A stretch of DNA of 64,000 nt from Actinomyces bovis (GTDB lineage: Bacteria; Actinomycetota; Actinomycetes; Actinomycetales; Actinomycetaceae). Below, one piece after another: positions 13,338-39,105 of the stretch (positions are counted from its first letter, which is position 1; each line of letters starts with the position of its first letter). The DNA lies in the NCBI RefSeq assembly GCF_900444995.1, contig NZ_UAPQ01000010.1, positions 1 through 64,000 on the forward strand, given 5' to 3'. Position numbers and translations under genes: made by a program. The notes under the pieces are model-generated. The model did no database searches. It was not told where the DNA came from and saw only the letters and a list, made by a program, of their open reading frames with translations.

Positions 13338-13427
13338 ATCCGCTGAGCCCCGCTGAGTTCCCCGAGCCGGTGCCCGGCGGCGGGGCCCCTGCGCGGCGAA
13401 GCCCGTCCCCTGTGTCAGGATGGTCGG

Positions 13428-16400: not shown

Positions 16401-16502
16401 GATGTGCGCACGAGCGAGGGCGCCGATGCTCTCGTCGCGGCGCGCGCGCAGAACCGGGGCGGGATCCGCACGAGCGCGAGGGTGAGCGACTACTGGTCGT
16501 GA
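13428..16502 (+). CDS. DEAD/DEAH-box superfamily 2 helicase with a C-terminal membrane segment
   Basis: A 1024-residue protein with a GTG start. Helicase motifs are in order: Walker A APPGSGKTI (about 50), motif Ia LVLAPTTVIRDQW, motif II VLDECHHLLDHW (about 238), motif III LTATPPD, motifs IV-V TRGLLGEGWDCPALNTLIDLT (about 608) and motif VI QLHGRTLRLDP. The N-terminal QxxAV stretch (RSYQSAVMEGL) is a Q-motif-like start. Unusually, two hydrophobic segments (about 785-845: LASIVSLVFAVLFVVASGLW and PVLLLITAGLVGVAVWSIGW) follow, so the protein may be membrane-tethered. It could be a defence or DNA-repair helicase; the context does not say. It is the longest intact gene of the GC-rich block. Confidence 0.8.
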   Translation: MIDAPDRPLSALRFTGELRSYQSAVMEGLERESWLADGPGEDAGGRALHLVAPPGSGKTILGLTLAVREGRRALVLAPTTVIRDQWAEEARTRFAVEENPVAGAAGERRAPEESGSGRTRVRITLDSDEIGDLSIMTYQKIAAVDRSNPFTDVAREQWIEEMELAWSDRERAEAWLEELRTTNRSAYSAGLRKRAAAIRKDLRTLDPAVLEKTLHPNALRLIGAIVRAGVGTIVLDECHHLLDHWALVVHLLRAKLREAGLDPLLIGLTATPPDPQTPKEEENYSGLLGEVDYEVPTPAVIRAGDLAPFRTWAWFTDPTPAERSFIDEHAGMLDSRLSALLASPDGRSFLLEALIGPDADEGGAVPGDLALRMRRAVEADPYLALSAGRMLSRMEASTLSPLESAIVSRLPDVERPALDDRLLLVARHALTRLLPDDARAEEWRATKRLLQAFGYHLTDRGIRRGPNPIDTTLARSESKERAVLDILRLEDDPRMRAAVVTDLAQHNDRSAILDEDGEAGPGGALRCFSIIAADPFSAHLHPVLITGKHLRILAGDEELARALRAKTGAPLPVLRTSGGVAELSVEGAAPSVLVDAVAAVMTEGLVRLVVGTRGLLGEGWDCPALNTLIDLTTVTTSTATQQLHGRTLRLDPAWPRKAAHNWVLACLPPKSAEYANTRELERMERKAAHLWGLSRIGADEPGTITRGIRTLLDEHQLDAFSQDSPKRLAGKTNAATRRALVPRESSFELWRTGSTASGRVHRSVSLTKDPVFEFTTSTTPLAALASIVSLVFAVLFVVASGLWRLRDALPLLPWPVLLLITAGLVGVAVWSIGWPAFANARFLWRTRAHPTDLYRRAAIVLLDVLAQTGTISRGIDPASVIVEEGEQVRVEFSAGTHADREAATRALAEMFTPIGVSKPRHVLALGPMPEIGSSSLSGRARILAVGARIVNLATSKNPHYLAVPVQLGATRESAGRVEEAWNRLVGPARVVDVRTSEGADALVAARAQNRGGIRTSARVSDYWS

Positions 16503-16599
16503 GCGGAGGGCCGGCGCGGGGCTCGCGATGCGGGTCCGGGCGGTGCGCCTCCGGGGAGGTCCGGTGGGCGGGCGCCTCCGGCGCGCTGCCCTGGCTCGC

Positions 16600-17046
16600 A
16601 TGATGACTCCTCCTTCTCCGCAGGACGAGTGCCCCTGCTACTCGGGCGCGCCCTTCGGCGCCTGCTGCGCGCCGATCCTCGCGGGAGAGGCCCCGTCGAG
16701 CGCGCTTGCGCTCATGAGGTCGCGGTACACGGCTTTCGTCCTCGCCGACGAGGATCACCTGTTCCGCTCCTGGCATCCGAGGACGAGGCCCGCCCCGCCC
16801 TACGCCGATCCGGGCATCGACTGGTGCGGCCTTCAGATCCTCGAGGTCGAGGGCGGGGTCCTCCCCGCCGTCCCGGGCCGCACCCTCAAGGGGGTCATCA
16901 TCGCGGGGGCGATCATGTTGATCCTCCTCATCGGATTCACCCGCCTGTACCTGGGGGCGCACTGGTTCTCCGACGTCATCGCGGGGGGCATGGTCGGCAC
17001 AGCGACCTCCCTCATCACGGCGGAGCTGCTGTTCCGGGACCTGTGA
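16600..17046 (+). pseudogene. in-frame fusion of YchJ/SEC-C protein to PAP2 phosphatase C-terminus
   Basis: The first ~85 residues are a YchJ-type protein with the SEC-C-like zinc motif CPCYSGAPFGACC and the YchJ signature ALMRSRYTAFVLADEDHLFRS. After LQILEVEGG the sequence turns into the end of a PAP2 phosphatase: FTRLYLGAHWFSDVIAGG, with the catalytic His of motif 3 (R-x5-GAHWxxD), and a last hydrophobic helix. The join lies at about 16852-16869, on a perfect 7-bp inverted repeat with a 4-base loop. The PAP2 lacks motifs 1 and 2, so it cannot be active. The earlier ATG at 16528 has no supporting site; the ATG pair at 16600 fits YchJ better. Confidence 0.8.
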
Positions 17047-17059
17047 GGGGATGAACGAA

Positions 17060-17087
17060 GGGGCCCCGACCGTTCGGTCGGGGCCCC
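17060..17087. terminator. bidirectional hairpin terminator
   Basis: A perfect 12-bp stem (ggggccccgacc/ggtcggggcccc) with a GTTC loop, placed between the convergent PAP2 fusion and GlsB genes. Confidence 0.8.
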
Positions 17088-17131
17088 TCCTCAGGCCTTC
17101 AGGCGAATGCGCGTCGCCGATGCGGCCGTCC

Positions 17132-17389
17132 TCAGTTCTTCGAGCGGATCTTGTTCCACACGTACATGACGATGAGCGCGCCGACGATCGAGAGGACCCA
17201 GGTCTTGAGGTTCCAGAAGGAGCCGAGGCCCACGTGGAAGACGAGGTTGCCGAGCCAGCCGCCGACCATGGCGCCGAGAACGCCGATGACGAGGGAGGAG
17301 CCCCAGCCCTCGCCGACGATGCCCGGCATGATCTTCTTGGCGATCGCGCCGACGACCAGGCCGAGGATGATGTAAGCGAAGAATCCCAT
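17132..17389 (-). CDS. GlsB/YeaQ/YmgE family stress-response membrane protein
   Basis: An 85-residue protein with three hydrophobic helices and the Gly-rich family pattern GLVVGAIAKKIMPG, GWGSSLVIGVLGAMVGGWLG. It is of usual length and ends in a basic tail (WNKIRSKN). The family is a small stress-associated membrane protein group (transglycosylase-associated protein). It converges on the PAP2 fusion and shares the terminator at 17060-17087. Confidence 0.93.
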   Translation of the reverse strand: MGFFAYIILGLVVGAIAKKIMPGIVGEGWGSSLVIGVLGAMVGGWLGNLVFHVGLGSFWNLKTWVLSIVGALIVMYVWNKIRSKN

Positions 17390-17599
17390 GAGAAACTCCC
17401 AGAATTCGGGGGCGGAACAGTCTCAGTGTCGCACGGATCCGGATCCGGCGCATCATCGGGGCGCGTATTCCGGGGGCTTCTCACACCCCGGCCCCGCCCT
17501 CGGCGATACCCTGGAGGATCAACCGGGGACCGGGCGCGGGCGCGAGGATCGCAGTACCCCGGCGCGCGAATGGGGCCCGGGGCGGGGATCGGAGGCGAA

Positions 17600-18787
17600 G
17601 TGGCGGCGGAGGACATCGTGGCCTATGTGGAGCGGATGCTCGCGCCCATCGACGCCGAGGGCTTCACCCCCGTGGATTCCCTGGTCCTGTCCTGGGCCTC
17701 CTACTTCCGTGTCCTGCCGGACCTGCCCGCCGCCGCGGGCGAGGAGGGGGTCGAGATCCGCGAACTGCTGCGCGCCGAATGCTTCCCCCGCTTCTTCTGG
17801 ACCGTGTTGGATCCGGACAAGTGCAAGCGGCTCCTCTTCGCGATGGCGGCGAGCCCGCGCTTCCGCTCGATCCGCCAGTGCTTCAGCGTCGACGACGTCG
17901 ATGATGCGCAGCAGAAGCAGTTCGCGGCCTGCGCCTACGTCCTGGGCCCCGAACTCATGTACGTCGCCTTCCGCGGGACGGACCGCACGCTCGTCGGCTG
18001 GAAGGAGGACTTCAACATGGCCTTCGCGGCGCCCGTCCCCGCCCAGGAGGCGGCCGCCGACTATCTCGCGGCCCTCGCCTCGAGGACGAGTGCGAAGCTC
18101 CTCCTCGGGGGGCATTCGAAAGGCGGGAACCTCGCGATCTACGCGGCTGCGCGCAATGCGGAGATGCTCGGGGATCGGCTCGTGCGCGTCTACTCGCACG
18201 ACGGGCCGGGCTTCCTCCCCGAGTTCCTCGCCGAACCGGGGTTCCGCGCCATCGAGGACAGGATCGAGAGGAGCGTCCCCCAATCCTCGATCGTCGGGAT
18301 GCTCCTCGACCACTCCTCCGATTACACGGTCGTGAAGTCGACGAACCTGGGGCCTCTCCAGCACGACCCCTTCTCCTGGGTCGTCGAGGGGGAGAATTTC
18401 GCGAGGGCGAAGGGGCTGAGCTTCGATGCACGCAGGATCGACGCGATCGTGTCGGCCTGGCTGGTCGAGCACACGCCCGAGCAGCGCGAGCTCCTCGTCG
18501 ACGCGATCTATTCGCTCATCACGCTTCCCGAGGTCGAGACCGTCACCGACCTCGTTGATTCCTGGCAGCGGGCGATCCCGGCCGTGCGCGAGAGGATCGG
18601 GGCGCTCGACCCGGAAGTGAGGGCGGCGATCCTCGAGATGCTCAAGAGCCTGGCGGTCGTGGGCCTGAGGGGCAAGGGGAAGGACGCGTCGACGGCGGAG
18701 GAGAAGTCGAAGGGCGGGGCCGGGAGGACTCCGGGGAAGGGCGGGGTGCTCAGAGCCAGGCGAAGTCCAGGGGCAGAAAAGCACTGA
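17600..18787 (+). CDS. DUF2974 (Mbeg1-like) alpha/beta hydrolase
   Basis: A roughly 395-residue lipase-like protein. The GTG at 17600 is taken as start because GGAGG lies five bases upstream; an ATG at 17570 has none, and anything earlier lies over the GlsB gene. The N-terminus (VDSLVLSWASYFR) and the nucleophile elbow GGHSKGGNLAIYAA (catalytic Ser) are typical of DUF2974. The acid is probably in the SHDGPGF stretch and the His in DHSSDYTVVKS. The C-terminus is a basic, low-complexity tail. Its substrate is unknown. Confidence 0.85.
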   Translation: MAAEDIVAYVERMLAPIDAEGFTPVDSLVLSWASYFRVLPDLPAAAGEEGVEIRELLRAECFPRFFWTVLDPDKCKRLLFAMAASPRFRSIRQCFSVDDVDDAQQKQFAACAYVLGPELMYVAFRGTDRTLVGWKEDFNMAFAAPVPAQEAAADYLAALASRTSAKLLLGGHSKGGNLAIYAAARNAEMLGDRLVRVYSHDGPGFLPEFLAEPGFRAIEDRIERSVPQSSIVGMLLDHSSDYTVVKSTNLGPLQHDPFSWVVEGENFARAKGLSFDARRIDAIVSAWLVEHTPEQRELLVDAIYSLITLPEVETVTDLVDSWQRAIPAVRERIGALDPEVRAAILEMLKSLAVVGLRGKGKDASTAEEKSKGGAGRTPGKGGVLRARRSPGAEKH

Positions 18788-18813
18788 ATCAGTGCTGACC
18801 AGCGCAAATGATG

Positions 18814-18877
18814 CAGCGGAACCACGAAAACAGTGCAGCGAATCTACGGATTCACTCCAGCGGAACCACGAAGACAG
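18814..18877. repeat. short direct repeat agcggaaccacgaa(a/g)acag
   Basis: Two copies, starting at 18814 and 18859, 45 bases apart, between the DUF2974 gene and the antitoxin relic. Apart from this pair the 18790-18940 stretch holds no recognisable gene. It could be a remnant operator. Confidence 0.5.
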
Positions 18878-18941
18878 ACCTCGCGGCGGGGTCAGTGGAC
18901 GCAGTCGAAGTTCGCGGGCACGAACCATATCCGGGCACTGT

Positions 18942-19060
18942 CTATGCGCCGACGCGCCACATGCCGAGCGCATCGAACATCTCGTCGGCATCAGCGAAAC
19001 GGGCTGTGCGAGCGGCGATCTTCCGGGATTGCGCGAGGGCTGCGCCGGGTTCCGAATTCG
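18942..19060 (-). pseudogene. RelB/DinJ antitoxin C-terminal relic
   Basis: On the minus strand the frame reads LAQSRKIAARTARFADADEM then FDALGM and ends at a TAG at 18942. It matches the tail of the antitoxin at 10053 (VRGTARFADADQVFDSLGI). The N-terminal ribbon-helix-helix domain is missing and no toxin follows. It sits 45 bases downstream of the DUF4143 ATPase gene. Confidence 0.7.
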
Positions 19061-19104
19061 ATCCTCTCTTCGAGCGCGAATACCGCCCCTCTTCCCCTCC
19101 CCTG

Positions 19105-20358
19105 TCAGGGACCTAGGGCGGTGATGGGCACGACGCAGACGCCGTCGGGTCGCTTGTAGGTGTATCGGCCGCCCGTGATCACGATGAGCGCTGCGGGCTC
19201 CCCATGCCGGTCCGGGTCGATCTTCGAGGCCATGCGCAGCAGCGACTCGGCTGCATCATCTGCAGCATTCTCTCCCAGTTTGACCTCAATGCCCGCCCAT
19301 CTGCCATCAGGCAGTTCGAGGACGACATCGACTTCTGCACCCGTGCGCGAGTCGCGCCAGGAGGACAGGGTCGCCCCAAGCGGCTGCGAATAGACTCGCA
19401 GGTCTCGAACGACGAGTGACTCGAAGTGCAATCCCGCAGCTTCGAGGTCTTTCGACAACTCGTCGACTCCGACACCGAGCGCTGCGGTTCCGAGCGATGG
19501 ATCGACGAAGTGATTGACCGGCGTTGTGCGGAGCCTGGTTCGCGATCTCATATGCGGCTGCCACGCTGGAATCGTTTCAACGAGCATTAACCTGTCCAAT
19601 GCGTCGAGGTAGTTGGACAGCGTTTCCGATGCGACTCGTCCAGCAGGCCCTCCGACGTCGTGCGCGAGGGCCGAGAGGTTGCGCGGAGTCGCTGCGGCCC
19701 GTCCCAAAGCAGCCAGAAGCCTGTGGACGTTGGCAGGATTTCGGCGCAGCCCCATGCCGGGCACATCGATCTCGGCGATGTTGCGAAGGTAGTCGCGCAA
19801 CCAGATTCGGGCTTCTCCTTCAGCGGCATCCAGAAGGTCCGGCCAACCGCCGATGATGATTCGTTCGAGCAGGTCGCGAATCGTCAGGCTTTCCGCGCGA
19901 CCACTCGGATCCCCACCGTTGAGCAGGTTCTTCACACTGACCTGGCCGCTCGAATGCCCCGTCTCGAAGAGGCTCATCGGCCGCATGCGAAGGCGTCCGA
20001 TCCTACCGGCCCCTGAATGCGTGCGCACGTCGTCCCGTAGGCGCGCGGAGCCCGTCAGAATGTACAGCCCTTTTCCGTAATGATCGTCAACTGCGCGACG
20101 CACGAGGTTCCACAGCTCCGGAACCTCCTGCCATTCGTCGAAGACGATCGGCGGAGTCTCCATGAACAGTTGCTCGGGCTGGATCTGCGCGGTCGCTCGG
20201 GCCGCCCTGTCGACATCCATTCGGAAGAGCGTCTTCGCGATGCGTTCGGCCGTTCTGGTCTTGCCGACAGCTTTCGGACCGTCGATCAGCACAGCACCGA
20301 TAGACGCCATTCGCTGCCGCAACTCGCTGTCCGCCACACGAGATCGATAATCCGCCAT
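19105..20358 (-). CDS. AAA ATPase with DUF4143 domain
   Basis: A 417-residue protein. The N-terminal AAA_14 domain has Walker A GPKAVGKTRTAERIA (about 26-40) and Walker B-like PIVFDEWQEVPELW; sensor I is YILTGSARL. The C-terminal DUF4143 domain (about 200-385) has VASETLSNYLDALDRLMLVE and a PD-(D/E)xK-like core HFESLVVRDLRVY ... TGAEVDVVLEL ... WAGIEVKLG. Family members are common orphan genes of unknown role, often linked to toxin-antitoxin or mobile DNA. The start codon lies inside the first unit of a 23-bp tandem repeat (20350-20464), and no clear ribosome-binding site precedes it. Confidence 0.88.
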   Translation of the reverse strand: MADYRSRVADSELRQRMASIGAVLIDGPKAVGKTRTAERIAKTLFRMDVDRAARATAQIQPEQLFMETPPIVFDEWQEVPELWNLVRRAVDDHYGKGLYILTGSARLRDDVRTHSGAGRIGRLRMRPMSLFETGHSSGQVSVKNLLNGGDPSGRAESLTIRDLLERIIIGGWPDLLDAAEGEARIWLRDYLRNIAEIDVPGMGLRRNPANVHRLLAALGRAAATPRNLSALAHDVGGPAGRVASETLSNYLDALDRLMLVETIPAWQPHMRSRTRLRTTPVNHFVDPSLGTAALGVGVDELSKDLEAAGLHFESLVVRDLRVYSQPLGATLSSWRDSRTGAEVDVVLELPDGRWAGIEVKLGENAADDAAESLLRMASKIDPDRHGEPAALIVITGGRYTYKRPDGVCVVPITALGP

Positions 20359-20464
20359 GCCTGAACTCTACAATCCGCCATGCCTGAACTCTACAATCCG
20401 CCATGCCTGAACTCTACAATCCGCCATGCCTGAACTCTACAGTTCGCCATCCTTGAAATCGATG
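20350..20464. repeat. 23-bp tandem repeat carrying repeated start codons
   Basis: Four perfect 23-bp units (atccgccatgcctgaactct + aca; 20350-20372, 20373-20395, 20396-20418, 20419-20441) and one degenerate unit (20442-20464). On the minus strand every unit contains GGCATGGCGGAT, and the ATPase gene uses the ATG of the first unit (20358). Because 23 is not a multiple of three, the other ATGs are in other frames. The degenerate unit overlaps the 3' end of the ABC-F gene. Confidence 0.95.
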
Positions 20465-20811
20465 ATCCGCCATCGAGTAGCGGGCGCGGGACGCTCTGAG
20501 CTACCGCGCACCACGGGCTCCAGCTCGATCCTCTCCCCCGCCCAGTGGTCGAGGAGCCAGCGGTCGTGGCTGGCGACGAGGAGCGTCCCGTCCCATTCGG
20601 CGAGAGCCTTCTCCAGGGCTTCGATCGAGTTCGACGACTCGGCCGTCGGCGCCGATCCCGTGACGATCCTCTCCAGGAGCGTGGTCTTGTCCGCGCCGTT
20701 CGGGCCGATCAGGCAGGCGCGCTCCCCGTTGACGACGGTGAAGGAGACGGAGTCGAGCAGGGGCTCGGCGGTGTAGGAGAAACTCAGGTCGGTGAGGGTG
20801 ATCGCGGGCAC
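20437..20811 (-). pseudogene. ABC-F type ATPase with large internal deletion
   Basis: Residues 1-47 are the start of an ABC-F protein (ITLTDLSFSYTAEPLLDSVS and CLIGPNGADKTTLLERIVTG), with a damaged Walker A (GADKT in place of GAGKT). From about residue 54 the sequence is the very end of the second ATPase domain (SIEALEKALAEWDGTLLVAS, HDRWLL), including the H-loop. About 400 residues between them (signature, Walker B, linker) are gone, in frame. The join lies near 20640-20656, next to the palindrome tcggcgccga. No ribosome protection or resistance function is possible. Confidence 0.8.
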
Positions 20812-20893: not shown

Positions 20894-22334
20894 GGCTCTT
20901 CACGATTTAGAGTGCGTTGATCCGGGTGTGCAGCTGCCCGGAGTGAATCAGGCACCGCAAGATGTAGTGGTCGAGGTTGCGCAACCCCAGGGCGGTTTCC
21001 CGTAGATGCTCTAGCCGGCCATTGATGGCCTCGACCGGCCCGTTGGACGCCCCGATGTCGAAGTAAGCCAGCACATCCTCGCGCCGACGCCACAACGTCC
21101 GACCCAGCTGGGCCAGCTCCTCCAACCCTTTCGGCACGCCCATACGCAGGGTGTTGATGATCCGTTCCATCAACTTCTTGCCCTCCGATTTCTTCGGGTG
21201 CCCGTAGGCCTGGATCATGTCCTGGTAGAACATCCACGTGACCTCGAGTGCCACGTATTCGTCATCGGTGGCCCACAACAGGTCCAACCGCCTGTTCTGC
21301 CGCTCGGTGAGGTAGTTCCTCCTGGTCAGCAAGGTCCGCCGGTGCTTGTACAGCAGATCATCCTTGCGTCCACGACGCCCCGTGGTCTCACGTTGGAGCC
21401 TCTGGCGGCAGCCAGTGAGCTTGTCCGCTGCCAGATGCACGACGTGGAACGGATCCATCACCTTCCTCGCCTGGGGCAGTACCTGGTCGACGGCGGTGGC
21501 CTAGCCGGTGAAGCCGTCCATGGTCACCACCTGCACCTGGCTGCAAAAACCAGGGTCGCGTTCCTGCAGCCACGTGCGCAGCACGTCCGCGCTGCGGCCT
21601 GGGCGGATATCCAGTACTCGGGCCGGCCCACGGCCATCGGCCAGCGGGGTGAGGTCGACCAGGATCGTCACCAGGTTGGACGGCTGGCCTGGCTTTCGGG
21701 TGTGCTTCCACACGTGCTCATCCACCCCGAGGATGCGCACCCCGTCCAGATGGGAGGGGTTGTCGTAGACGAGCTGTCGGCAGGCGTCCACAGCGACCTG
21801 ATTGACCAGTTCCCAACCCACCTAGAGGGCCTTGGCGGTGGCGGCCACGCTCATCCGGTCGATGGCCAGTCGCTGGAGGATCCAGCCGGTCACCCGGTGG
21901 GTGAGCTTGGCCCCGTCATTGGCGCAGTTGAGGGAGGCTTGGAAGATTTTCCTGGGACATTGTTGATTGGTGCAGGTGAATCGGGGGACACGAAGGTGCA
22001 GGCGGGTGAAAAACCCCACGACCGGCAGGTCAACCAGTCGGCAGACAGTGTGATCACGCAGTTTCCCGCCTTGGGTGCAGTCGGGGCAGTGCCCCTCGAC
22101 AGCGACCGGGGCGGCGTCGATGATGGTGAAGGCTCCGGTGATCGTCAAGCCGATTTCTGCCGTGCGGCAGATGGTGTCTGCGACGAGGTTGCCACTAGGC
22201 TGCACAGTAGGGTCCTGGTTCGGTCAGATGCAAGCGTAGTAACTCTCATCTTGTACCGGCCAGGACCCCCAACATGTTGTCCCACCCCGAACCGGGCTCC
22301 GCGGTCAGCTACGCACCCCAAAACACGAAGAGCC
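20894..22334 (-). mobile_element. ISL3-family insertion sequence, copy 1
   Basis: A 1441-bp element bounded by imperfect inverted repeats (GGCTCTTCACGATTTAGAG at 20894; GGCTCTTCGTGTTTTGGGG, complement, at 22334). It is nearly identical to copy 2 at 25905-27360, in the opposite orientation, but lacks 15 bp near 22125. The 8-bp flanks (gggttatg / accaaacg) differ, so no target duplication survives; this fits recombination after insertion. Confidence 0.9.
20907..22205 (-). pseudogene. ISL3 transposase with two in-frame TAG codons (copy 1)
   Basis: One reading frame from 22205 to 20907 encodes an ISL3 transposase: zinc-ribbon N-terminus (HCPDCTQGGKLRDH, CTNQQCPRK), helix-turn-helix, DDE core (RILGVDEHVWKHT, VTMDGFTG, MDPFHVVHLA) and the end GASNGPVEAINGRLEHLRE. 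It is interrupted by TAG after ATAKAL (21822) and TAG after DGFTG (21501). Both codons occur at the same places in copy 2. Relative to copy 2 it lacks five residues after LTITGA. Confidence 0.9.
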
Positions 22335-23400: not shown

Positions 23401-23555
23401 AACTTGGGCATACCTCGTGGGCACCTCGACACGATCGCTCAACGTTAGTCCTCCACCACTCACGTCCTATCGTCTCCGCTGCCCACCCCGGTCGCAGGGA
23501 AAATATGTGAGGCGCGGGCCCGGCTGTGCGGGGAGCATCAGTGAGTCTCGTCGCG

Positions 23556-23702
23556 ATGTTGACTTTGAAGCTGCACAATCTGATTTTGGATTTAATACAT
23601 ATGCACTCTAATCGACTCCGCTCATCAGGTGATTCGTTTGAAGATGATACCTATTGGCTTCTTCGGCAAGTTATTCACAAACATCGATTCTTGGGCGACT
23701 GA
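23556..23702 (+). pseudogene. probable C-terminal tail of a lantibiotic dehydratase (LanB)
   Basis: A 48-residue frame reads LILDLIHMHSNRLRSSGDSF and ends LLRQVIHKHRFLGD. It resembles the very end of the LanB C-terminal (SpaB_C, glutamate-elimination) domain, which typically closes with a HMHxNRL motif followed by an acidic/aromatic helix. It ends 20 bases before the LanT gene, the arrangement expected for lanB-lanT. The rest of lanB is missing, replaced by the transposase remnant. The identification is by motif only. Confidence 0.55.
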
Positions 23703-23722
23703 TACAGAAGTGAGTCATATAA

Positions 23723-25555
23723 ATGGACGAACAGATTTTCGCTGAATCTAGCAGGCGTGCCGCGCCGCTCGGAACTTCTTTTAAGCAGGCTCTGGGCACC
23801 TTGTATCGAACCGGTCGTTATTCCTTGCTTGCGATTGTCTTTATGACTGTACTAAGGGGACTTTTTCCCGGGCTACAAGTCGCAGGTGTGGCCGGTATTG
23901 TCGCAAGCGTTTCTTCCTATCCCGGAAAATTAACGTCTGGAGGAATGTATGCATTGCTTTTAGTGGCAATGTCGCTTGTTGGTTCTTATGTTCTCGACAA
24001 TCTCGTAAAATATACAAGTGATCGCCTAACGCTTAAATTATCCTATACTACGGATCTTCAAGTAGTCAGACAACTACGCTCTTTAGAAGTCCAAGATTTT
24101 GAATCAGCTCACACATATGACAAAATTCAGCGAGTTGACTCTAGTGCAGGAAGTCACATATTTGGTCTCTTTGACTCGGCCCGTTCTGCTGTTCAAGCCT
24201 TTATATCAATCACAGGGATAGCGGCGGTTATCGCTTCATGGAATGGTTGGATCGCGCTTGCGCTGTTGGTCGCTCCTATTCCTGCTGCAGTTGCAACCTT
24301 TCAACTGCAGTCGAAGACTTACGACATAGAATTCGGGCGAGCGCCACAAACGCGACTGGCAAACTATTTCAGAGCATTATTGACCTCGGACGCCACCAGA
24401 AAAGAAATCAAAATTTTCCGGCTTGCGCGACTCTTCGAGGACAGATACCTCCAATTACGCAAGATCTTTCTTCGTCAAGATTTATTGCTTGCGCGGTTTG
24501 GGCTGACAAAAGCAGGCACTCTAGGACTTATCTCTGTCTTCGCTAATGTTGGCGCAATAGTATACGCTGCTCTATTAGCTGGCGAGAGCGGTAGGGTCGG
24601 AGAACTCGCGGGCTTTATCTCCGCAACAGCTCAGATGAATCCACTGGTTATGGCATCATTTCTTGGAGTGACCGGAATATACCAGCATCTGCTCTATGTA
24701 TCAAACTGGGTCGCAGTGATGGAAACACATCCCGCTGTGATTACTGAAGGTAAGAGTGAACTCAGCAAGGATAAGGCGAGTATCAGCGAACATGGAGGCG
24801 TTTCAATCGAGTTTCGTCATGTGTCTTTCACATATCCGGGAACTGAACGTACGGTACTCGACGATGTTTCATTCACCATTCAACCTGGGAGAACGTCCGC
24901 ATTAGTGGGACTGAATGGCTCTGGTAAAACTACGGTATGCAAGTTATTGCTTCGGTTCTATGAACCAACTAGCGGCACTATCTACGTGAACGGTAAAGAT
25001 ATCAAATGCTTTAATCGCGAGTCTTTGTATGACTGTTTTTCCGCTTTATTTCAGGATTTTGCAAAATTCGAGCGTAGCGTGGGATCGAATGTTACATATG
25101 GGGCTGGCAAAGATTTCACCTCTCCGCCAGACGACGCTGATGTTATCAAGAGTCTTGAGATGGTAGGATTGGATTTTTTGGCAGACTAGCTCCCAAACGG
25201 CTTGGCAACAATTCTCGGTCGACGTTTTGAAGAAGGTCAACAACTTTCGATCGGGCAATGGCAGCGTTTAGCGACTGCTCGTGCCCTGTATAAGAAACCA
25301 AAGTTGCTTGTACTAGATGAGCCAACTGCTTCAGTTGATGCCGTTTCAGAGCGTGCCATGTTCGAGGCCCTCGACAAGATCAATTATGGGCTAACTATCT
25401 TGCTAGTCGCTCATCGCTTTACAACGATCAGCCATGCCGATCATATTGTTGTTCTAGACGGCGGTCGTGTCGTCGGATCTGGAACACACGATTCTCTTCT
25501 ATCGAGCTGTAAGTTCTACGCCGACATGTTTAGAGCGCAACGCGACTATCGATAG
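23723..25555 (+). pseudogene. LanT-type ABC exporter (no peptidase domain), interrupted by in-frame TAG
   Basis: One frame of 610 codons encodes a fused membrane/ATPase exporter. Six hydrophobic segments lie in residues 30-310; the ATPase has Walker A LVGLNGSGKTTV, then after the break the signature LSIGQWQRLATARAL, Walker B KLLVLDEPTASVD and H-loop VAHRF. The LSxGQWQ form is typical of NisT/SpaT-like class I lanthipeptide exporters. A TAG at 25187 (after GLDFLAD) removes signature and Walker B, so the truncated product should be inactive unless read through. The gene itself ends in TAG. Codon use is AT-richer than the chromosome, a sign of transfer. It sits between inverted ISL3 copies. Confidence 0.85.
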
Positions 25556-25904: not shown

Positions 25905-27360
25905 GGCTCTTCGTGTTTTGGGGTGCGTAGCTGACCGCGGAGCCCGGTTCGGGGTGGGACAACATGTTGGGGGTCCTGGCCGGTACAAGATGAGAGTTAC
26001 TACGCTTGCATCTGACCGAACCAGGACCCTACTGTGCAGCCTAGTGGCAACCTCGTCGCAGACACCATCTGCCGCACGGCAGAAATCGGCTTGACGATCA
26101 CCGGAGCCGCCGACGCCGCAACCTTCACCATCATCGACGCCGCCCCGGTCGCTGTCGAGGGGCACTGCCCCGACTGCACCCAAGGCGGGAAACTGCGTGA
26201 TCACACTGTCTGCCGACTGGTTGACCTGCCGGTCGTGGGGTTTTTCACCCGCCTGCACCTTCGTGTCCCCCGATTCACCTGCACCAATCAACAATGTCCC
26301 AGGAAAATCTTCCAAGCCTCCCTCAACTGCGCCAATGACGGGGCCAAGCTCACCCACCGGGTGACCGGCTGGATCCTCCAGCGACTGGCCATCGACCGGA
26401 TGAGCGTGGCCGCCACCGCCAAGGCCCTCTAGGCGGGTTGGGAACTGGTCAATCAGGTCGCTGTGGACGCCTGCCGACAGCTCGTCTACGACAACCCCTC
26501 CCATCTGGACGGGGTGCGCATCCTCGGGGTGGATGAGCACGTGTGGAAGCACACCCGAAAGCCAGGCCAGCCGTCCAACCTGGTGACGATCCTGGTCGAC
26601 CTCACCCCGCTGGCCGATGGCCGTGGGCCGGCCCGAGTACTGGATATCCGCCCAGGCCGCAGCGCGGACGTGCTGCGCACGTGGCTGCAGGAACGCGACC
26701 CTGGTTTTTGCAGCCAGGTGCAGGTGGTGACCATGGACGGCTTCACCGGCTAGGCCACCGCCGTCGACCAGGTACTGCCCCAGGCGAGGAAGGTGATGGA
26801 TCCGTTCCACGTCGTGCATCTGGCAGCGGACAAGCTCACTGGCTGCCGCCAGAGGCTCCAACGTGAGACCACGGGGCGTCGTGGACGCAAGGATGATCTG
26901 CTGTACAAGCACCGGCGGACCTTGCTGACCAGGAGGAACTACCTCACCGAGCGGCAGAACAGGCGGTTGGACCTGTTGTGGGCCACCGATGACGAATACG
27001 TGGCACTCGAGGTCACGTGGATGTTCTACCAGGACATGATCCAGGCCTACGGGCACCCGAAGAAATCGGAGGGCAAGAAGTTGATGGAACGGATCATCAA
27101 CACCCTGCGTATGGGCGTGCCGAAAGGGTTGGAGGAGCTGGCCCAGCTGGGTCGGACGTTGTGGCGTCGGCGCGAGGATGTGCTGGCTTACTTCGACATC
27201 GGGGCGTCCAACGGGCCGGTCGAGGCCATCAATGGCCGGCTAGAGCATCTACGGGAAACCGCCCTGGGGTTGCGCAACCTCGACCACTACATCTTGCGGT
27301 GCCTGATTCACTCCGGGCAGCTGCACACCCGGATCAACGCACTCTAAATCGTGAAGAGCC
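25905..27360 (+). mobile_element. ISL3-family insertion sequence, copy 2
   Basis: A 1456-bp element with the same terminal sequences as copy 1 (GGCTCTTCGTGTTTTGGGG at 25905; complement of GGCTCTTCACGATTTAGAG at 27360), in opposite orientation. The flanks (aatttatc / ggttcact) do not match. Its right end cuts a gene that begins MADFEEVN on the minus strand at 27385. With copy 1 it frames a 3.57-kb segment like an inverted composite transposon. Confidence 0.9.
26034..27347 (+). pseudogene. ISL3 transposase with two in-frame TAG codons (copy 2)
   Basis: A single frame of 437 codons covers a complete ISL3 transposase: zinc ribbon CPDCTQGG and CTNQQCPRK, helix-turn-helix near MSVAATAKAL, catalytic RILGVDEHVW, MDGFTG and the final Glu in NGPVEAINGR. 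TAG codons at 26430 and 26751 split it at the same sites as in copy 1; the second probably stands for Tyr (TAC/TAT). The gene ends in TAA. Since both copies carry the same lesions, the element moved or was copied after acquiring them. Confidence 0.9.
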
Positions 27361-27385
27361 GGTTCACTTCTTCAAAGTCAGCCAT
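27361..27385 (-). pseudogene. second lanthipeptide-type precursor gene, cut by ISL3 after 8 codons
   Basis: On the minus strand AGGAG lies six bases before an ATG at 27385, followed by MADFEEVN, after which the ISL3 end begins. The acidic Phe-Glu start resembles the leader of the intact precursor 50 bases upstream (MVNEPDFEF), and tandem precursor genes are common in lanthipeptide loci. The core region is lost from this place. Confidence 0.45.
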
Positions 27386-27434
27386 CTTTTTCTCCTATCG
27401 GTCGTCGATGTTCTTGACTTGCTATCTTGACTTG

Positions 27435-27608
27435 CTAGCAGCACGCACGCGTACCCAAGCGACAGCTACCCCAAATCGCAGTGTCACTGAAGCACTGTGT
27501 AAAGGTAGCAAGGATGAGGGTTCCACATGGAATGGATGTACCACCTGAAGTATCAAGACTGTCTTCATCCAGTTCCACAGCGAATTCAAAATCTGGTTCG
27601 TTCACCAT
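27435..27608 (-). CDS. candidate lanthipeptide precursor peptide
   Basis: A 57-residue peptide with an acidic leader (MVNEPDFEFAVELDEDSLDT, then SGG) and a 34-residue core starting TSIPCGTL and ending CRLGTRACC. The core has five Cys (residues 28, 39, 49, 56, 57) and nine Thr/Ser, enough for up to five thioether rings, with the C-terminal CC pair seen in several lantibiotics. The GG after residue 21 suggests the cleavage site. GGAGG lies 12 bases upstream of the ATG, rather far; a short overlapping ATG at 27617 gives only four codons. It follows the LanE-type gene by 24 bases, in the same operon, and a second precursor start follows. The class (I or II) is uncertain; the LanB tail and peptidase-free LanT nearby favour class I. 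Too short for most gene callers. Confidence 0.75.
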   Translation of the reverse strand: MVNEPDFEFAVELDEDSLDTSGGTSIPCGTLILATFTQCFSDTAIWGSCRLGTRACC

Positions 27609-27632: not shown

Positions 27633-28433
27633 CTAGTTTCTATACCTAAGCGGACGCCGCATGAAGAAGCAGTACCCTACCGCACCGATAATTAGACCGT
27701 AGAAAATCATCACTATCAGAGCTAGATTTCCGGGTAGACCGATCGCGGCTCGAACACCGGCAGTGCCTGCACCAGCATCCCAGCTACTTGCCCAGTTAAG
27801 AGGACCGAACAACCATTTAGTAAAAGACATTAGGGATTGAGAGCGGTTTGACGCTGCAGAGATGGTCGGCTCCACGAACAGCGAAAAAACCAAGAGTAGA
27901 CTCATGACCACTGCAATATTATTGAAAACAAAACCCAGACCAGCACCAATTAAAGCCCATACCCATTGCAAGGCAAGCATGCGAAACGACGGGACGATTT
28001 GCGCTAGAGTGAAAAGCTCAATAGGCTGGTGGCATAACGCCAGAACTAAGGCGGAGAGCAAGTGATTCAGTACTGCGACTAAGCTTCCGAATATGCCGCC
28101 AAAAAGAACACTCGACCATATTAGTGCGCCAAAAGTACTTCTCTTGTCCAATGCAAGCAGATGTACACGTACTGACTGGGAACTCCGCAATACAGCAGTT
28201 GTAAGATACGCAGAGATCGCCAACGGGATAACATATCCGATTCTTCCAGAAAACGAATACAAATAGCTATAGGACACTCGTTCGATTGTCTCGCCACTGT
28301 AACTCGATGCAACTACGTAGGTCATCAGCAAGTTGAGTACCAACATAAAAACCATTAACACACCCGCAAGTAGCCAAAGCAGGCGATCACGATATTGCAC
28401 CGAACGAGCATATACAGAAAGCTTAGCGATCAT
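27633..28433 (-). CDS. ABC-2 type permease, LanE-like immunity subunit
   Basis: A 266-residue protein with six hydrophobic segments (for example LLAGVLMVFMLVLNLLMTYV at the N-terminus and LALIVMIFYGLIIGAVGYCF near the end), of the length usual for LanE/LanG and BcrB-type permeases. The start overlaps the ATPase stop by 4 bases. With the ATPase it forms an exporter likely to remove the lantibiotic made from the neighbouring precursor gene. The gene ends in TAG, 24 bases before the precursor start. Bacitracin-type resistance transport is the alternative. Confidence 0.75.
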   Translation of the reverse strand: MIAKLSVYARSVQYRDRLLWLLAGVLMVFMLVLNLLMTYVVASSYSGETIERVSYSYLYSFSGRIGYVIPLAISAYLTTAVLRSSQSVRVHLLALDKRSTFGALIWSSVLFGGIFGSLVAVLNHLLSALVLALCHQPIELFTLAQIVPSFRMLALQWVWALIGAGLGFVFNNIAVVMSLLLVFSLFVEPTISAASNRSQSLMSFTKWLFGPLNWASSWDAGAGTAGVRAAIGLPGNLALIVMIFYGLIIGAVGYCFFMRRPLRYRN

Positions 28434-29308
28434 TCCGACGAGCCTCCGGAGACACGGAAATTGTGCGTTTTTAAGTGGTATAATTCGGTCAGAGAAACCC
28501 GGTGGAGATTATTTTCCATGATTTCAGCTAACGACAGCCCCTCCGGTCTTCCGGAGACACCGCTGGGTTCGTAGACATAAACCCACCTTTTACCACGATA
28601 TACCACGTCTTGACCACTGGATCCCTCGGTTAGCTCGGAGCTTTCAAGACAAATGTATCTGTCTAGGTCTTCCATTGACTCTATAATACTGTCCAGATTG
28701 CCCTGATATATGACTTGCCCTTCCATCAGAAAAAGACAGCGATCAACGATTGCCTCTGCTTCGGCAAGGAGGTGTGTGGCAAATATGATTGCTTTCTGAT
28801 TCAAAGCAAGCGCTTTAACTCTGCTGTTGAGCCATTCAATCCCGTCTGGATCCAATCCATTTAATGGCTCATCAAATATGAAAACATCTGGATCTTGAAT
28901 TAGCGAGAGCGCAAGAGCAAGGCGTTGCTTATTTCCAGTTGATAACTTTACAACTCTATGATTCAGATATGGCGTCAGATTGCATTCATCGATTACATTA
29001 TCGAGCAAGCCTGGACTACGTTTCAACGCACGGCGAAGCCCCTCTAGTTGGTCTATGACCCTGGTGTGAGGAAGTAGAAATAACTGCTCGAACACCCCAC
29101 CACACGTGAATTGGCCGATATTAGCTACTTCGCCACTATCTTTCTTCAGGGTGCCCGTCAAAAGCGAGACTAGTGTACTCTTTCCTGCGCCGTTGGGCCC
29201 AAAAATACCCGTTACTTGGCCTTTAGGGAAGTCAGCATCAACTGGTCCGAGAATGAAGCCGTCAAAGACTTTAGTCAACCGGCGACATTCAAAGGATGGA
29301 GCCTTCAT
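28430..29308 (-). CDS. ABC transporter ATP-binding protein, LanF-like immunity subunit
   Basis: A 292-residue ATPase of the LanF/BcrA group. Walker A is FGPNGAGKSTLVSLL (about 34-48), the signature KLSTGNKQRLALALSL, Walker B VFIFDEPLNGLDPDG and the H-loop FATHLLAEAE. The ~80-residue C-terminal extension after the ATPase core is typical of this group. Its start overlaps the small membrane protein gene by 20 bases, so the operon 29510-27435 is tightly coupled. Confidence 0.85.
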   Translation of the reverse strand: MKAPSFECRRLTKVFDGFILGPVDADFPKGQVTGIFGPNGAGKSTLVSLLTGTLKKDSGEVANIGQFTCGGVFEQLFLLPHTRVIDQLEGLRRALKRSPGLLDNVIDECNLTPYLNHRVVKLSTGNKQRLALALSLIQDPDVFIFDEPLNGLDPDGIEWLNSRVKALALNQKAIIFATHLLAEAEAIVDRCLFLMEGQVIYQGNLDSIIESMEDLDRYICLESSELTEGSSGQDVVYRGKRWVYVYEPSGVSGRPEGLSLAEIMENNLHRVSLTELYHLKTHNFRVSGGSSE

Positions 29309-29510
29309 CGCGCTTCTCGCTCACGGTTTTTACCACGATAGTTAATGCACAGATGAACGCAATAAGAAAACACACTCCACCTACGGGCGGCAGACCTACG
29401 ACCATAAAGACTAAGCCGAGTAGTACTGAAACAATCATTATAACCAACTCAACTGGTCGAGCTTTTAAAGCATCTCGAAGTTTCGAGTTACCATTACCAT
29501 AATTTGCCAT
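29289..29510 (-). CDS. small two-helix membrane protein at the head of the lanthipeptide immunity operon
   Basis: A 73-residue protein with GGAGGTG six bases upstream of its ATG. It has two hydrophobic helices (VIMIVSVLLGLVFMVVGLPP and GGVCFLIAFICALTIVVKTV) and charged ends. It is not recognised. Its place, first gene before the LanF/LanE pair, suggests an accessory immunity protein (LanI/LanH-like role), which is inference. Confidence 0.65.
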   Translation of the reverse strand: MANYGNGNSKLRDALKARPVELVIMIVSVLLGLVFMVVGLPPVGGVCFLIAFICALTIVVKTVSEKRDEGSIL

Positions 29511-29656: not shown

Positions 29657-30229
29657 TCACCAGTCTCTAGACCCAGATGAACACGTATGGCGGTATGCCT
29701 CCAACAACGAGTTATCCAAAACTTCTTCCAGTGTTCCTCCTCCCCCGGAAGGAAGATGCGGCCTGATTCGCTTCTCAACCACGGCAGCCCTCATACCATT
29801 AGTGAAGCCTCTGGCGATGCGTCGGGTGAGTTCGATGAACCCGTTGATGGCTTCGGTGTTGCCATTGCTAGTTCCGTTGCTCGCGAAGTAACCCCAGAAC
29901 ACGTCACGCCACGGGTTGATGGTGCCTCTCAGGCGTGCAATCTGGAGGCTCGGGCAGGTCAAGAACACGTCAAGAACTATCTTCGCGATACGCAGTCCCT
30001 CAGCACGGTTGGCCTGCCAGTATGCCCCACGCAATTGTTGCGCGCAACGCCAAGCAATCTCGACCTCGATGCGTTGCTCGTTGGCGGTGAACGCCGCCTA
30101 GAGGCTAGCTTGCTGCCGGTCGGTGAGATTATCTTCCCCAGTTCGCAGAACGTTGCAGATCAGGTAGCGGATCATCCGTCTTGCAACCCCACTACCCGGG
30201 CGTCCAAATTGAGTGCAGCCGCCGAATGA
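29657..30229 (-). pseudogene. ISL3-type transposase C-terminal relic
   Basis: The minus-strand frame at 30034-29690 reads RGTINPWRDVFWGYFASNG then TSNGNTEAINGFIELTRRIARG, matching the catalytic Glu region (SNGPTEAINGRLEHLRR) at the end of ISL3 transposases. The upstream part (to 30229) is out of frame and the zinc ribbon is absent. It is more divergent than the three larger copies. Confidence 0.7.
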
Positions 30230-30913: not shown

Positions 30914-32440
30914 TCAGGCTTTGAAGTGAATCTCGATAGCGCCGTTAGAGGTGACGGTGGCGTGGTCGACGAGGTTGTTCCAGGCTTGGTCAGAGTATTC
31001 GAGGGGTGGCTGGCTGGCGAGGTAGTCGCGGACTTTGGTGGCCTGGGCTCGGCGGTATCGCAGATCATCGATCTGCTCGCTGATGTGTTGATGCTCGGCC
31101 TCGAGTTGCTGGTGCCGGTTTTCGAGCTCGTGGTAGCGGCGGTCGTAGTCGTCAGGGTCATGAGCTGTGGCGGCTGCGGTAGTGATGAGTTGATTCATCA
31201 GCGTGATGGTTTCTTCGATCCGTTCACCCAGTGTGGCCTGCTGGGTTTCAAGCACGGTGGTGTCGTAAACGGTTTCATCAAGCAGACGCATCGTCTCGTC
31301 AAGAACAGCATGGTCGGTGACGCGCTCGATGAGGGCTGCGACGAACGCGTCTTTGATCTGGTCTTCAGAGACGTGGGGCGTGGCGCAATTATGATCCTTT
31401 TTGTATTTGTTGTTGCAGCGCCAGATGTAGCGGCGGTATTTGCTCGTGGAGTGCCAGACTTTCCGCCCAAAACTGCCGCCGCAGTCAGAGCAGGTGATCG
31501 TGTTGGCGAAGGGGTGCGTGTTGGAGGTGCCTTTGCCTGCCCGGCGGGCGAGTTCTGCTTGGACAGCGTCCCAGGTGCCGTGGTTGATGATGGGTTCGTG
31601 GTTGCCGGTGACGTAGTACTGGGGCACTTCACCTTCGTTGACTTTCATGGTTTTGGTCAAGAAGTCGGTAGTGAAGCTCTTCTGTAGGAGCGCGTCGCCT
31701 TTGTATTTCTCGTTGGCCAGGATTGACCGCACAGTGGAGGGCGACCACACAGTTTTGCCGCGCGGGGTGGGGATCTGATCGGCTGTGAGTTCTTTGGCGA
31801 TGGTTTGCGGTGTTGCTCCTTGAAGGAAGCGGGCGTAGATACGCCGCACGATCGGAGCTTGGGTTTCGTCGATGGCAAGGTTTCCGTCTTCGCCTTTCTT
31901 GTATCCGAGCAGTGAGGCGTAGGGCACCATGATTTTCCCGTCGGCGAAGCGTTTCCGGTGCCCCCACGTGACGTTCTCGGAGATGGAGCGGGATTCTTCT
32001 TGGGCAAGGCTGCTCATGATGGTAATGAGCAGTTCGCCTTTGGAATCAAGGGTCCAGATGTTCTCTTTTTCGAAGTACACCTCCACGCCTGCGTCTTTGA
32101 GCTGGCGGACGTAGGTGAGGGTATCGACGGTGTTGCGGGCGAACCGGGACACGCTTTTGGTGAGGACCAAATCGATTTTTCCGGCGAGGGCGTCGGTGAT
32201 CATGGTTTTGAAGCCTTCGCGGTGTTTGGTGGTGGTGCCGGTGATACCTTCGTCAGCGTACATGCCTGCGAATTCCCACTCGCTGCGCGATTGGATGTGG
32301 CGGGTATAGTAGTCGATTTGCGCCTCGTAGGAGGAGGCTTGCTCTTCGGCCTCGGTGGACACCCGCGCATAGGCCGCAACCTTCAACCGCTGTGGCCGGG
32401 CTGGTTTTGCTGGGATCACCCTCATCTCACCCACGTGCAT
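30914..32440 (-). CDS. large serine recombinase (integrase)
   Basis: A 508-residue site-specific recombinase. The ATG at 32440 is used because GGAG lies four bases upstream; a frame reaching 32497 has no site. The catalytic domain starts VAAYARVSTEAEEQASS (nucleophile Ser) and has VSRFARNTVDTL and IMSSLAQEESRSISENV. The recombinase domain and a zinc ribbon (CSDCGGSF ... CNNKYKKDHNC) follow, then a coiled coil (about 405-475). It probably integrated a phage or island. Two small genes upstream and an endolysin/holin pair belong to the same module. Confidence 0.95.
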   Translation of the reverse strand: MHVGEMRVIPAKPARPQRLKVAAYARVSTEAEEQASSYEAQIDYYTRHIQSRSEWEFAGMYADEGITGTTTKHREGFKTMITDALAGKIDLVLTKSVSRFARNTVDTLTYVRQLKDAGVEVYFEKENIWTLDSKGELLITIMSSLAQEESRSISENVTWGHRKRFADGKIMVPYASLLGYKKGEDGNLAIDETQAPIVRRIYARFLQGATPQTIAKELTADQIPTPRGKTVWSPSTVRSILANEKYKGDALLQKSFTTDFLTKTMKVNEGEVPQYYVTGNHEPIINHGTWDAVQAELARRAGKGTSNTHPFANTITCSDCGGSFGRKVWHSTSKYRRYIWRCNNKYKKDHNCATPHVSEDQIKDAFVAALIERVTDHAVLDETMRLLDETVYDTTVLETQQATLGERIEETITLMNQLITTAAATAHDPDDYDRRYHELENRHQQLEAEHQHISEQIDDLRYRRAQATKVRDYLASQPPLEYSDQAWNNLVDHATVTSNGAIEIHFKA

Positions 32441-32508
32441 CACTCTCCTTTCGCCGCCCGCTTTCCTTTGTTGGCTAGGGGGTTGTGGTGGTTGCATCCA
32501 TGTACGCT

Positions 32509-33261: not shown

Positions 33262-33954
33262 TTAGTAGCCGAGTTTCTGATTCACACGTTTCTGGACGGC
33301 GGCATAGTTCGCACCGAGCCTTCGGCGGCGTTCCTCGCCGTTGCCGTACTCGCCTCGGATCACCGCATCAGCCAGCGCGTCGATGTTGACGGAGGGCTTG
33401 GGCGCGGGCGGTGTGGGCTTTGCCGGTGGTGTCGGGGCGGGCTTGGTGCCGCTCATGCGGTCGTACCAGTACTGGGCGCGTGCCATGTAGGCCGCATGCT
33501 GGGAGCCTGCCAGCGAGGCCGGGCATTCGGTGGCAGAGAAATGCTTGTGGCCGAACACGTTCTTACCCCACGCTGGTCGTCCGAGCTTGTAGTAGTGGCA
33601 GATGGCCGCGACGAGGTGGGCACCGTTGTCGAGGCAGGCCTCGGAGATACGCCAGGGCTTGGAGGAAATGTCGGCGTGTTCGATACCGATGGAGGTGGTG
33701 TTAGCCTCCCAGTTGCCTGCATGCCAGGCGGTGTCGCGATCCCAGACGAGCTGGCCGATGCGACCGTTGGAGTCGACCTGGTAGTGGGCGGATGCTTGGC
33801 GGGTCTGCCACACATCCCAGATGGATTTGATGGTGAGGTTGCCTGCGTTGTGGTGGATGATGACCTTATTGATTTTCCGCCCGTTGCGGCCTTTGGTGTA
33901 GTGCTTGTTCATCAGCCGGTTTTCGTCGGCTTCGAAGGTGGCCCAGTTCTTCAT
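33262..33954 (-). CDS. phage endolysin, N-acetylmuramoyl-L-alanine amidase
   Basis: A 230-residue lysin. The Amidase_2 domain (about 20-165) has the zinc ligands in VIIHHNAGN and FGHKHFSATECPASL and the conserved IGIEHAD. A Pro-rich linker (PAPTPPAKPTPPAPKP) leads to a C-terminal repeat-like wall-binding segment ending LGANYAAVQKRVNQKLGY, as in Cpl-7-type domains. The start overlaps the holin stop (ATGA). There is no signal peptide, consistent with holin-dependent release. Confidence 0.92.
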   Translation of the reverse strand: MKNWATFEADENRLMNKHYTKGRNGRKINKVIIHHNAGNLTIKSIWDVWQTRQASAHYQVDSNGRIGQLVWDRDTAWHAGNWEANTTSIGIEHADISSKPWRISEACLDNGAHLVAAICHYYKLGRPAWGKNVFGHKHFSATECPASLAGSQHAAYMARAQYWYDRMSGTKPAPTPPAKPTPPAPKPSVNIDALADAVIRGEYGNGEERRRRLGANYAAVQKRVNQKLGY

Positions 33955-34415
33955 GAGAGGTTCTCCTTTTTAGCTGGGGTGGTTTGGCTGGGGTGGTGTT
34001 CGAGGTCGGGTTTGCCTGTCACGTCACGGGTGATCAGATCCAGGGCGCGGCGAATGTGATCAGGCACGGGCAGCCCGAGCCGAGTGGCGTTTTCGATCAG
34101 GGAGATGCCTTCGTTGGACAGGTAGAACAGGATCGTGGCGGTTCGCAGCACGCCGGGGGTGCCGATGATATGGGTGTCAAGCAGGTGGGCGAGGCCGATG
34201 AGGGCGAAGAGTACGACTTTTCGGCTGATCCCTTTGAATCCGATCGCGGAGGATACGCGCCGTTCACTGATTGCGGCGAGCACGCCGGTGATGTAGTCGG
34301 CGATGACGAAGGCGATGAGGACGTAGATGAGGCCGTCGAGGCCTCCAAGGAAGGCGGCGATCGCGGCACCGATTCCGGCGATACCGGTTTGGATCGCGAC
34401 CCAGATGGCTTTCAC
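33951..34415 (-). CDS. phage holin
   Basis: A 154-residue membrane protein with three hydrophobic segments (IGAAIAAFLGGLDGLIYVLI, DYITGVLAAI, VLFALIGLAHLLD) and the FKGISRKVVLFALI stretch characteristic of the phi29/Cp-1-type (holin_4_1) family. A hydrophilic tail follows. It is coupled to the endolysin gene. The upstream phage genes are absent; unrelated DNA starts at about 34416. Confidence 0.88.
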   Translation of the reverse strand: MKAIWVAIQTGIAGIGAAIAAFLGGLDGLIYVLIAFVIADYITGVLAAISERRVSSAIGFKGISRKVVLFALIGLAHLLDTHIIGTPGVLRTATILFYLSNEGISLIENATRLGLPVPDHIRRALDLITRDVTGKPDLEHHPSQTTPAKKENLS

Positions 34416-38307: not shown

Positions 38308-39105
38308 TTAGACTACGTTCCTTTTGAATCTAACAAATCCAACCAAAACCGAAATCACGGGATACGCTATAGCAGTACAAAATAGGAGTGGATAGTTCAA
38401 TGTGCCTGTTATCACAGGATCTTGTGTAATCAAGTATCCGTAAACATTGTTGGGCAGCCAAGAACTGATTGTCTTTGAAATGTCTAGCGGTATAAGACCA
38501 AATACAATAGGAGCTATCAGGCTTATCGCAATATATGATCCGATCGCGGAAGCAGCATGGCGAAAGATAAACGCCAATCCACCCGCAAACAACACACTAG
38601 TAGCCAAATTGAAACACGCGACTAGGATCTGCCTCCAAACTGTAGCATCAGCTAGAGTGATCGTGTATGGCGTGTCATGTGATACTAAGATGCCTTCGAG
38701 AGGAATAATCGCCATTAGAATTACAAAGAATGTTGATAGCGAAAACGCTAGTGGCCAAAAAAGTTTAGATGCGATAAACCTTGCAGGTCGACGACTTGCC
38801 CCGAAAGTGGTATAGATAAAACCAGAACCCCACTCGGCACAAATGTAGGCGATTATTGCAGCTCCAAAGAAGATTTGCGCAAAAGAAAAACCAAAAAGTG
38901 GAATCTCGTAAAGAAACGAGACGTCTTTAAGCGGTTCTCCTTTACTATAGGAGAGGGCTATGCTATAAGATACCGCTATTGCGATCGCGAACATGATAAC
39001 AAGGCCCGTATAGATCAGCAATCGTGCCGAACGTGACCCCTTGAATACGATCATCTGCAATCGAAAGTCACTGAGAGTGCTACTACGATACTTAACATCA
39101 GCCAT
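38308..39105 (-). CDS. lanE: ABC-2 permease, LanE-type immunity subunit of the class II operon
   Basis: A 265-residue membrane protein starting at the ATG at 39105, which overlaps the ATPase stop (TAATG). It has six hydrophobic segments, including LIYTGLVIMFAIAIAVSYSI, FFGAAIIAYICAEWGSGFIY and PLLFCTAIAYPVISVLVGFV. With the ATPase it probably exports or repels the mature lantibiotic from the producer's membrane. It is the last gene of the operon 45273-38308. No LanG homologue follows. Confidence 0.82.
   Translation of the reverse strand: MADVKYRSSTLSDFRLQMIVFKGSRSARLLIYTGLVIMFAIAIAVSYSIALSYSKGEPLKDVSFLYEIPLFGFSFAQIFFGAAIIAYICAEWGSGFIYTTFGASRRPARFIASKLFWPLAFSLSTFFVILMAIIPLEGILVSHDTPYTITLADATVWRQILVACFNLATSVLFAGGLAFIFRHAASAIGSYIAISLIAPIVFGLIPLDISKTISSWLPNNVYGYLITQDPVITGTLNYPLLFCTAIAYPVISVLVGFVRFKRNVV

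Follow-up and report, generated by a model that had tools for sequence, protein, structure and literature searches.

The locus described here lies on the minus strand of the window (the whole 64-kb stretch of DNA that was analyzed) and comprises a short lanthipeptide precursor frame, a LanFE-type gene pair, and a small upstream ORF. These features, and the insertion sequences and lanthipeptide-related genes around them, are as follows:

20894..22334, minus strand: inverted ISL3-family element (copy 1), sharing 98.9% identity with copy 2
23526-25555, plus strand: LanB-tail-like frame and split ABC transporter, between the two inverted ISL3 copies
25905..27360, plus strand: ISL3-family element, copy 2, bounding the locus downstream of lanA
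27361..27385, minus strand: Shine–Dalgarno-led frame starting MADFEEVN, cut by the insertion sequence after 8 codons
27435..27608, minus strand: lanA, Ros-beta-like precursor, leader MVNEPDFEFAVELDEDSLDTSGG, core TSIPCGTLILATFTQCFSDTAIWGSCRLGTRACC
27633..28433, minus strand: LanE-like permease, 266 aa, identified by sequence comparison with relatives
28430..29308, minus strand: LanF-like ATPase, 292 aa, homologous to LanF of relatives
29289..29510, minus strand: 73-aa ORF, positioned like the small ORF upstream of relatives' precursors
29657..30034, minus strand: transposase remnant upstream of the operon, ISL3-like by eye
38308-45273, minus strand: second class II lanthipeptide cluster (LanE, LanF, C39 LanT, LanM, short precursor)
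45273-45118, minus strand: second-cluster precursor frame, core AWTVPGTRTIGRVCTMSWECWGFLCG, mersacidin-like by eye, matching no Pfam family

The 73-aa ORF, LanF, and LanE share one strand and overlap at their ends; lanA starts 24 bases past the stop of the LanE-like gene (27633), on the same strand, behind a Shine–Dalgarno sequence (GAAAGGAGGTG) rated good/strong. Its 57 codons run from 27608 to 27435 and encode an acidic leader with an SGG end, followed by a core of 34 residues that contains five Cys and ends in CC. The initial annotation had proposed this frame, these peptide features, and a lanthipeptide-type precursor beside a LanF/LanE-like pair, all of which the exact coordinates, the translation, and the gene arrangement bear out. 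A 12-base stretch, TAGCAAGTCAAG, is present twice at the end of lanA (27413-27437, minus strand), with the stop codon inside the first copy. A perfect TTGACA lies ahead of the operon but comes with no acceptable -10 element, and with two sigma-70 sites against 2.8 expected no promoter is claimed; terminator-like sites in the region number five against 2.5 expected, and none was used.

LanF and LanE are homologous to the ABC ATPase and permease of lantibiotic loci. The best NCBIfam match of LanF is galliderm_ABC (lantibiotic protection ABC ATPase), at 113.7 bits and thus below the cut-off of 309.75; no NCBIfam family matched LanE. The 73-aa ORF has no sequence match to the small ORF of relatives, and its membrane nature was judged by eye.

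That the precursor frame is real rests on homologs in two genomes of the same genus, which are decisive: a first search of 59 genomes (own included) returned strong matches in G021 (E 2.3e-17) and G031 (E 5.1e-17), and the other matches listed stood at E 0.007 or worse. One of these, in G054 (E 0.007), lies in a region of ordinary large ORFs and was taken as chance. A pattern scan (40–110 aa, at least five Cys in the last 35 residues, terminal CC, and GG or GA before the last 25) recovered lanA as the sole match in the 64-kb window, and 30 third-order Markov sequences of the same length gave no match; the pattern was devised with the frame already known and is therefore weak as evidence. The window precursor matched no family in Pfam or NCBIfam, and the matches of its relatives all fell below cut-off. 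A three-row profile matched 3 of 49 genus genomes, own included (2 of the 48 others). At the class level, where at most 16 candidates were scored per genome, the profile search recovered 3 of 394 genomes—own, G400 (9.6e-12), and G105 (9.1e-8)—and at the order level, with at most 14 candidates scored per genome, a five-row profile recovered own and G031 (2 of 396). Two genome-contig scans, which rest on short patterns and may miss near genomes, yielded no relative, a weak absence; nor was a precursor relative found in one viral-contig scan and one plasmid scan.

The window precursor is 53–60% identical to those of G021 and G031, which keep all five Cys, and 48% identical over 48 residues to the beta-like precursor of G400. 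The core spans 34 codons and shares 22 residues with each of the G021 and G031 peptides, yet identical codons number just 9 and 7; by the NG86 method, dN is 0.31 and dS 2.57 against G021, and dN is 0.34, with dS saturated and no value returned, against G031. The core codon comparison shows that the protein was under constraint in the past, and not that it functions at present.

In both G021 and G031, the beta precursor is followed by a second (alpha) precursor, containing GSGWVYTFGCCWC and GSGWMYTFGCCWC, respectively, and by LanM, LanT, LanF, and LanE. These loci are class II and two-peptide: their LanM carries DUF4135 and LanC-like domains (Pfam) and matches TIGR03897 above cut-off, and their LanT has a C39 peptidase domain. 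Upstream are a small ORF and a frame that looks, by eye, like a response regulator. In G400, the beta-like precursor adjoins a peptide with the core GSGVLGTLGCCSCLPWYSGWTVCGLACNPGKPCKN, followed downstream by a LanM and a LanT that are 34% and 41% identical to those of G031. The L030 and L031 neighborhoods were covered for precursors, plus LanM and LanT by one tblastn set. The stretches printed for Ros-alpha in the part of PMC10027976 consulted (SGVLGTLGCC at 2-11 and SGWTVCGLAC at 18-27) are both held by the G400 alpha core, which has Cys at positions 13 and 33 as well.

Because its G400 relative adjoins a peptide matching the published Ros-alpha core, the window precursor is, judging by these sequence relationships, a Ros-beta homolog. 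Of the six fixed positions in the C-terminal motif given for Ros-beta, GS/TxxxxS/TxGCC (PMC10027976, in part), the window's GSCRLGTRACC fits five, with Ala for Gly, and all four aligned relatives fit six. The core, for which the initial annotation knew of no named lantibiotic, is of a recognized kind, given the profile matches, the partial motif fit, and the G400 alpha neighbor. The type is in fact already known, insofar as the portion of PMC10027976 consulted names the beta of "A. radicidentis" among betas lacking ring C partners; we read this name, which that portion does not spell out, as Actinomyces radicidentis, a species that exists. The roseocin beta precursor has been placed in family II 2 (PMC7268733, in the part consulted). 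The betas of the window, G021, and G031 carry five Cys and that of G400 six, in line with one ring having been lost; for the window peptide, five rings would be no more than a prediction.

The remaining components of such a system were sought in the window's own genome, an assembly of 12 contigs with an estimated completeness of 99.97%. No alpha precursor was found there at E 0.01, strong matches among the 49 genomes being confined to G031 and G021. Weak alpha matches (E 0.001–0.01) arose in six genomes and were rejected. Those in G001, G011, and G024 (loci L024, L025, and L026) are another precursor type, alike in the leader: small precursors whose cores contain HEC and end in CCS, resembling lacticin 481 by eye, and which precede, by some 500 bases or more, LanMs that are 26–27% identical to the roseocin type; L025 holds two copies of this precursor. 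Those in G066, G030, and G017 are frames without precursor features and look like chance. A roseocin-type LanM was not found on any contig; the single LanM recovered, in the second cluster, is interrupted by a stop and about 25% identical to the roseocin type (23–29% in parts). No C39 LanT stands beside the precursor, and within the window the G031 LanT query covers the C39 part only in the second cluster (39989-42091). As the searches for an alpha, a roseocin-type LanM, and a neighboring C39 LanT found none of them, membership of the roseocin family as a cluster is withheld; and since the genome yielded neither an alpha nor a roseocin-type LanM, the window locus most likely represents a remnant rather than a producing cluster.

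What truncated the locus may be visible at its downstream border. The MADFEEVN frame is probably the former next gene of the operon, although its 8 codons match nothing. The transposase of ISL3 copy 2, which cuts it, lies in several frames, the last of which matches DDE_Tnp_ISL3. ISL3-family elements have a target duplication length of 8 bases; the four flanks of the two copies have no common 8-base duplication, the best pair agreeing at 4 of 8 positions, which fits a later deletion or other rearrangement. GC content is 47% in the remnant and 49% in the precursor, compared with 70% at 12300-19100, a stretch treated as core, and is likewise 47% in the second cluster and in the LanT-like gene; given this low GC, the three lanthipeptide-related stretches look foreign to the genome. 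A large serine recombinase (Resolvase, Recombinase, zinc ribbon; 30914-32497, minus strand) and frames that are lysin- and holin-like by eye (33262-34415, minus strand) are likely a prophage remnant adjoining the lanthipeptide remnants. Elsewhere in the window, tandem near-repeats of about 23–46 bases occur at the end of one frame (20349-20473).

The putative LanB tail and LanT relic that the initial annotation placed close by are there as frames, but are probably not linked to lanA. The LanB tail matches PF14028 at E 0.012, below its cut-off; the LanT relic, an ABC transporter, is broken into two frames (23723-25189 and 25202-25555), and the domain scan reported no C39 domain for it. Because an ISL3 copy separates these frames from lanA and they are encoded on the other strand, and because the precursor's relatives are class II, they probably belong to another decayed locus unrelated to lanA, possibly a third lanthipeptide locus, of class I. 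A class I reading of the precursor itself was rejected: no LanB/LanC set lies near it, the weak LanB-tail match being found only beyond the insertion sequence, and its relatives carry LanM and C39 LanT. Intact loci with a homologous precursor, which the initial annotation had envisaged with lanB and lanC, thus exist in G021 and G031, but with class II machinery.

The distribution of the LanFE pair across the genus offers a broader context. The window's LanE type occurs at E 0.001 or better in 7 of 49 genomes, own included, and just two of these seven, G021 and G031, have a roseocin-type LanM (61% identical to each other; 14 other LanM matches in the genus are 23–28% identical to the roseocin type). 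In G070, locus L042 (G070:C1:696001-715900) retains a response-regulator-like frame, LanF, LanE, and a truncated LanT missing its first part as well as an inner one, with no beta, alpha, or LanM match nearby; it is a roseocin-type locus in decay. G017 has kept LanF and LanE, and the response-regulator-like frames before LanFE in G070 and G017 (by eye) recall those of the intact loci. G022 and G015 hold the LanF and LanE nearest to those of the window. None of these four genomes has a LanM match within the 18–20 kb fetched around LanFE; no DUF4135 match was obtained at E 1e-5 in G022, G015, or G017, and the two in G070 are both far from LanFE. That five of the seven LanE-type genomes are without a roseocin-type LanM suggests that the biosynthetic part has been lost repeatedly and the LanFE pair retained—the weapon lost and a probable immunity kept.

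How, then, are lanA and the LanFE pair related? We consider the window locus to be probably a decayed roseocin-type two-peptide class II lanthipeptide locus, a reading with some evidence against it: the LanFE pair is far more diverged from its roseocin-type counterparts than the precursor is, and the gene order is not that of G021 and G031; the beta frame is undamaged, as would be expected of a functional gene; saturation of dS means that a recent loss of constraint is not readable from dN/dS; and an assembly of 12 contigs leaves some room for a missing piece. It is also conceivable, if rather unlikely, that LanFE stands alone as a unit for immunity or peptide resistance, and that the beta is a passenger that arrived independently, without any past operon relation. 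The window LanE is 27–30% identical to that of G021 and G031, and LanF 31–34%; set against the 53–60% identity of the precursors, these values mean that pair and precursor may have different histories, having diverged to very different degrees. Further, the nearest relatives, in G022 and G015 (about 40% for LanE, 35–37% for LanF), lie where no LanM was found. The 24-base spacing, the shared strand, and lanA's own Shine–Dalgarno sequence nonetheless argue for an operon, as does the homology of the window LanE to the roseocin-type LanE of G021 and G031 (E ~1e-20), a relationship that the second-cluster LanE does not share (E 0.1).

The readings in which the locus still yields a product fare less well. 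Maturation of the orphan beta in trans, without an alpha of its own, by the second-cluster LanM and LanT 14 kb away is improbable: an intact beta frame and a LanM (DUF4135 and LanC-like domains) with a C39 LanT in the same window (39983-45036) speak for it, but that LanM is split by an in-frame TGA at 42871-42873 and is only about 23–29% identical to roseocin-type LanMs over alignable parts, and the second-cluster precursor has a different leader (MSGINFFEELSEQELSENQNSFTGG). That the living strain has a complete, producing locus, its missing genes lost to an assembly gap around the insertion sequence, is more doubtful still; short-read assemblies do fail at near-identical copies such as these (98.9%), and there are 12 contigs, yet both copies lie within one 202-kb contig, the estimated completeness is 99.97%, and no contig holds an alpha or a second LanM. 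Hardest to credit is a hybrid two-peptide system, in which the mersacidin-like second-cluster peptide would act as a lipid II binder paired with a pore-forming beta of another family. The CTMSWEC of that second-cluster peptide resembles the lipid II-binding CTxTxD/EC motif, which, in the part of PMC10027976 consulted, is found in most characterized alpha peptides and is absent from Ros-alpha. In G070, a match to the second-cluster precursor (56% identity over 41 residues) adjoins a LanM.

If the locus is a decayed two-peptide system, its history might be reconstructed as follows. The ancestral operon would have run from the small ORF through LanF, LanE, and the beta precursor, then probably to alpha, LanM, and LanT; an ISL3 insertion with a linked deletion, after codon 8 of the next gene, would have removed all that lay past beta. 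Transcription and translation of the beta precursor may continue but, lacking a matching LanM, its own C39 LanT, and an alpha, the peptide probably goes unmatured. LanFE may still be under selection, as a putative protection against kin producing the two-peptide compound in intact form. The frame, its Ros-beta homology, the class II relatives, the failure to find an alpha or roseocin-type LanM in the assembly, and the insertion-sequence junction are observed; we infer the ancestral gene order, the deletion as cause, the immunity function, and the lack of product. No description of an orphan beta with LanFE was found in the open-access literature searched, which is thin ground, and family clusters with missing genes are mentioned in the part of PMC10027976 consulted. 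The locus adds a roseocin-beta relative. If LanFE still protects, such strains would be immune non-producers, in which the persistence of immunity beyond the weapon could be tested; as a lesson for annotation, a five-Cys precursor with a LanFE pair need not mean a producing cluster.

Class I lantibiotics of the nisin/gallidermin type have LanB/LanC and LanFE immunity pairs. The window resembles them in its own LanFE pair and in the weak LanB tail and ABC transporter near lanA; it differs in that the insertion sequence separates lanA from the LanB tail, which is encoded on the opposite strand, and in that the precursor's relatives have LanM. The likeness to the G021 and G031 loci lies in the beta core (22 of 34 residues identical), the small upstream ORF, and the presence of LanFE. 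Those loci, however, also hold alpha, LanM, LanT, and a response-regulator-like frame in a different gene order, and the stretches fetched are 71–73% GC, against 47% in the window remnant. Compared with roseocin, as far as the consulted parts of its description extend, the window is without alpha, a matching LanM, and a C39 LanT of its own; LanFE stands before the precursor; and the peptide has five Cys, against six in the G400 beta, and Ala for Gly in the GCC motif. To the same extent, the window precursor shares with roseocin a double-Gly leader, a core start of T[ST]xxC, and a C-terminal GSC followed by a CC end, and its relatives share the alpha, the beta, one LanM with CHG motifs (by eye), and the C39 LanT.
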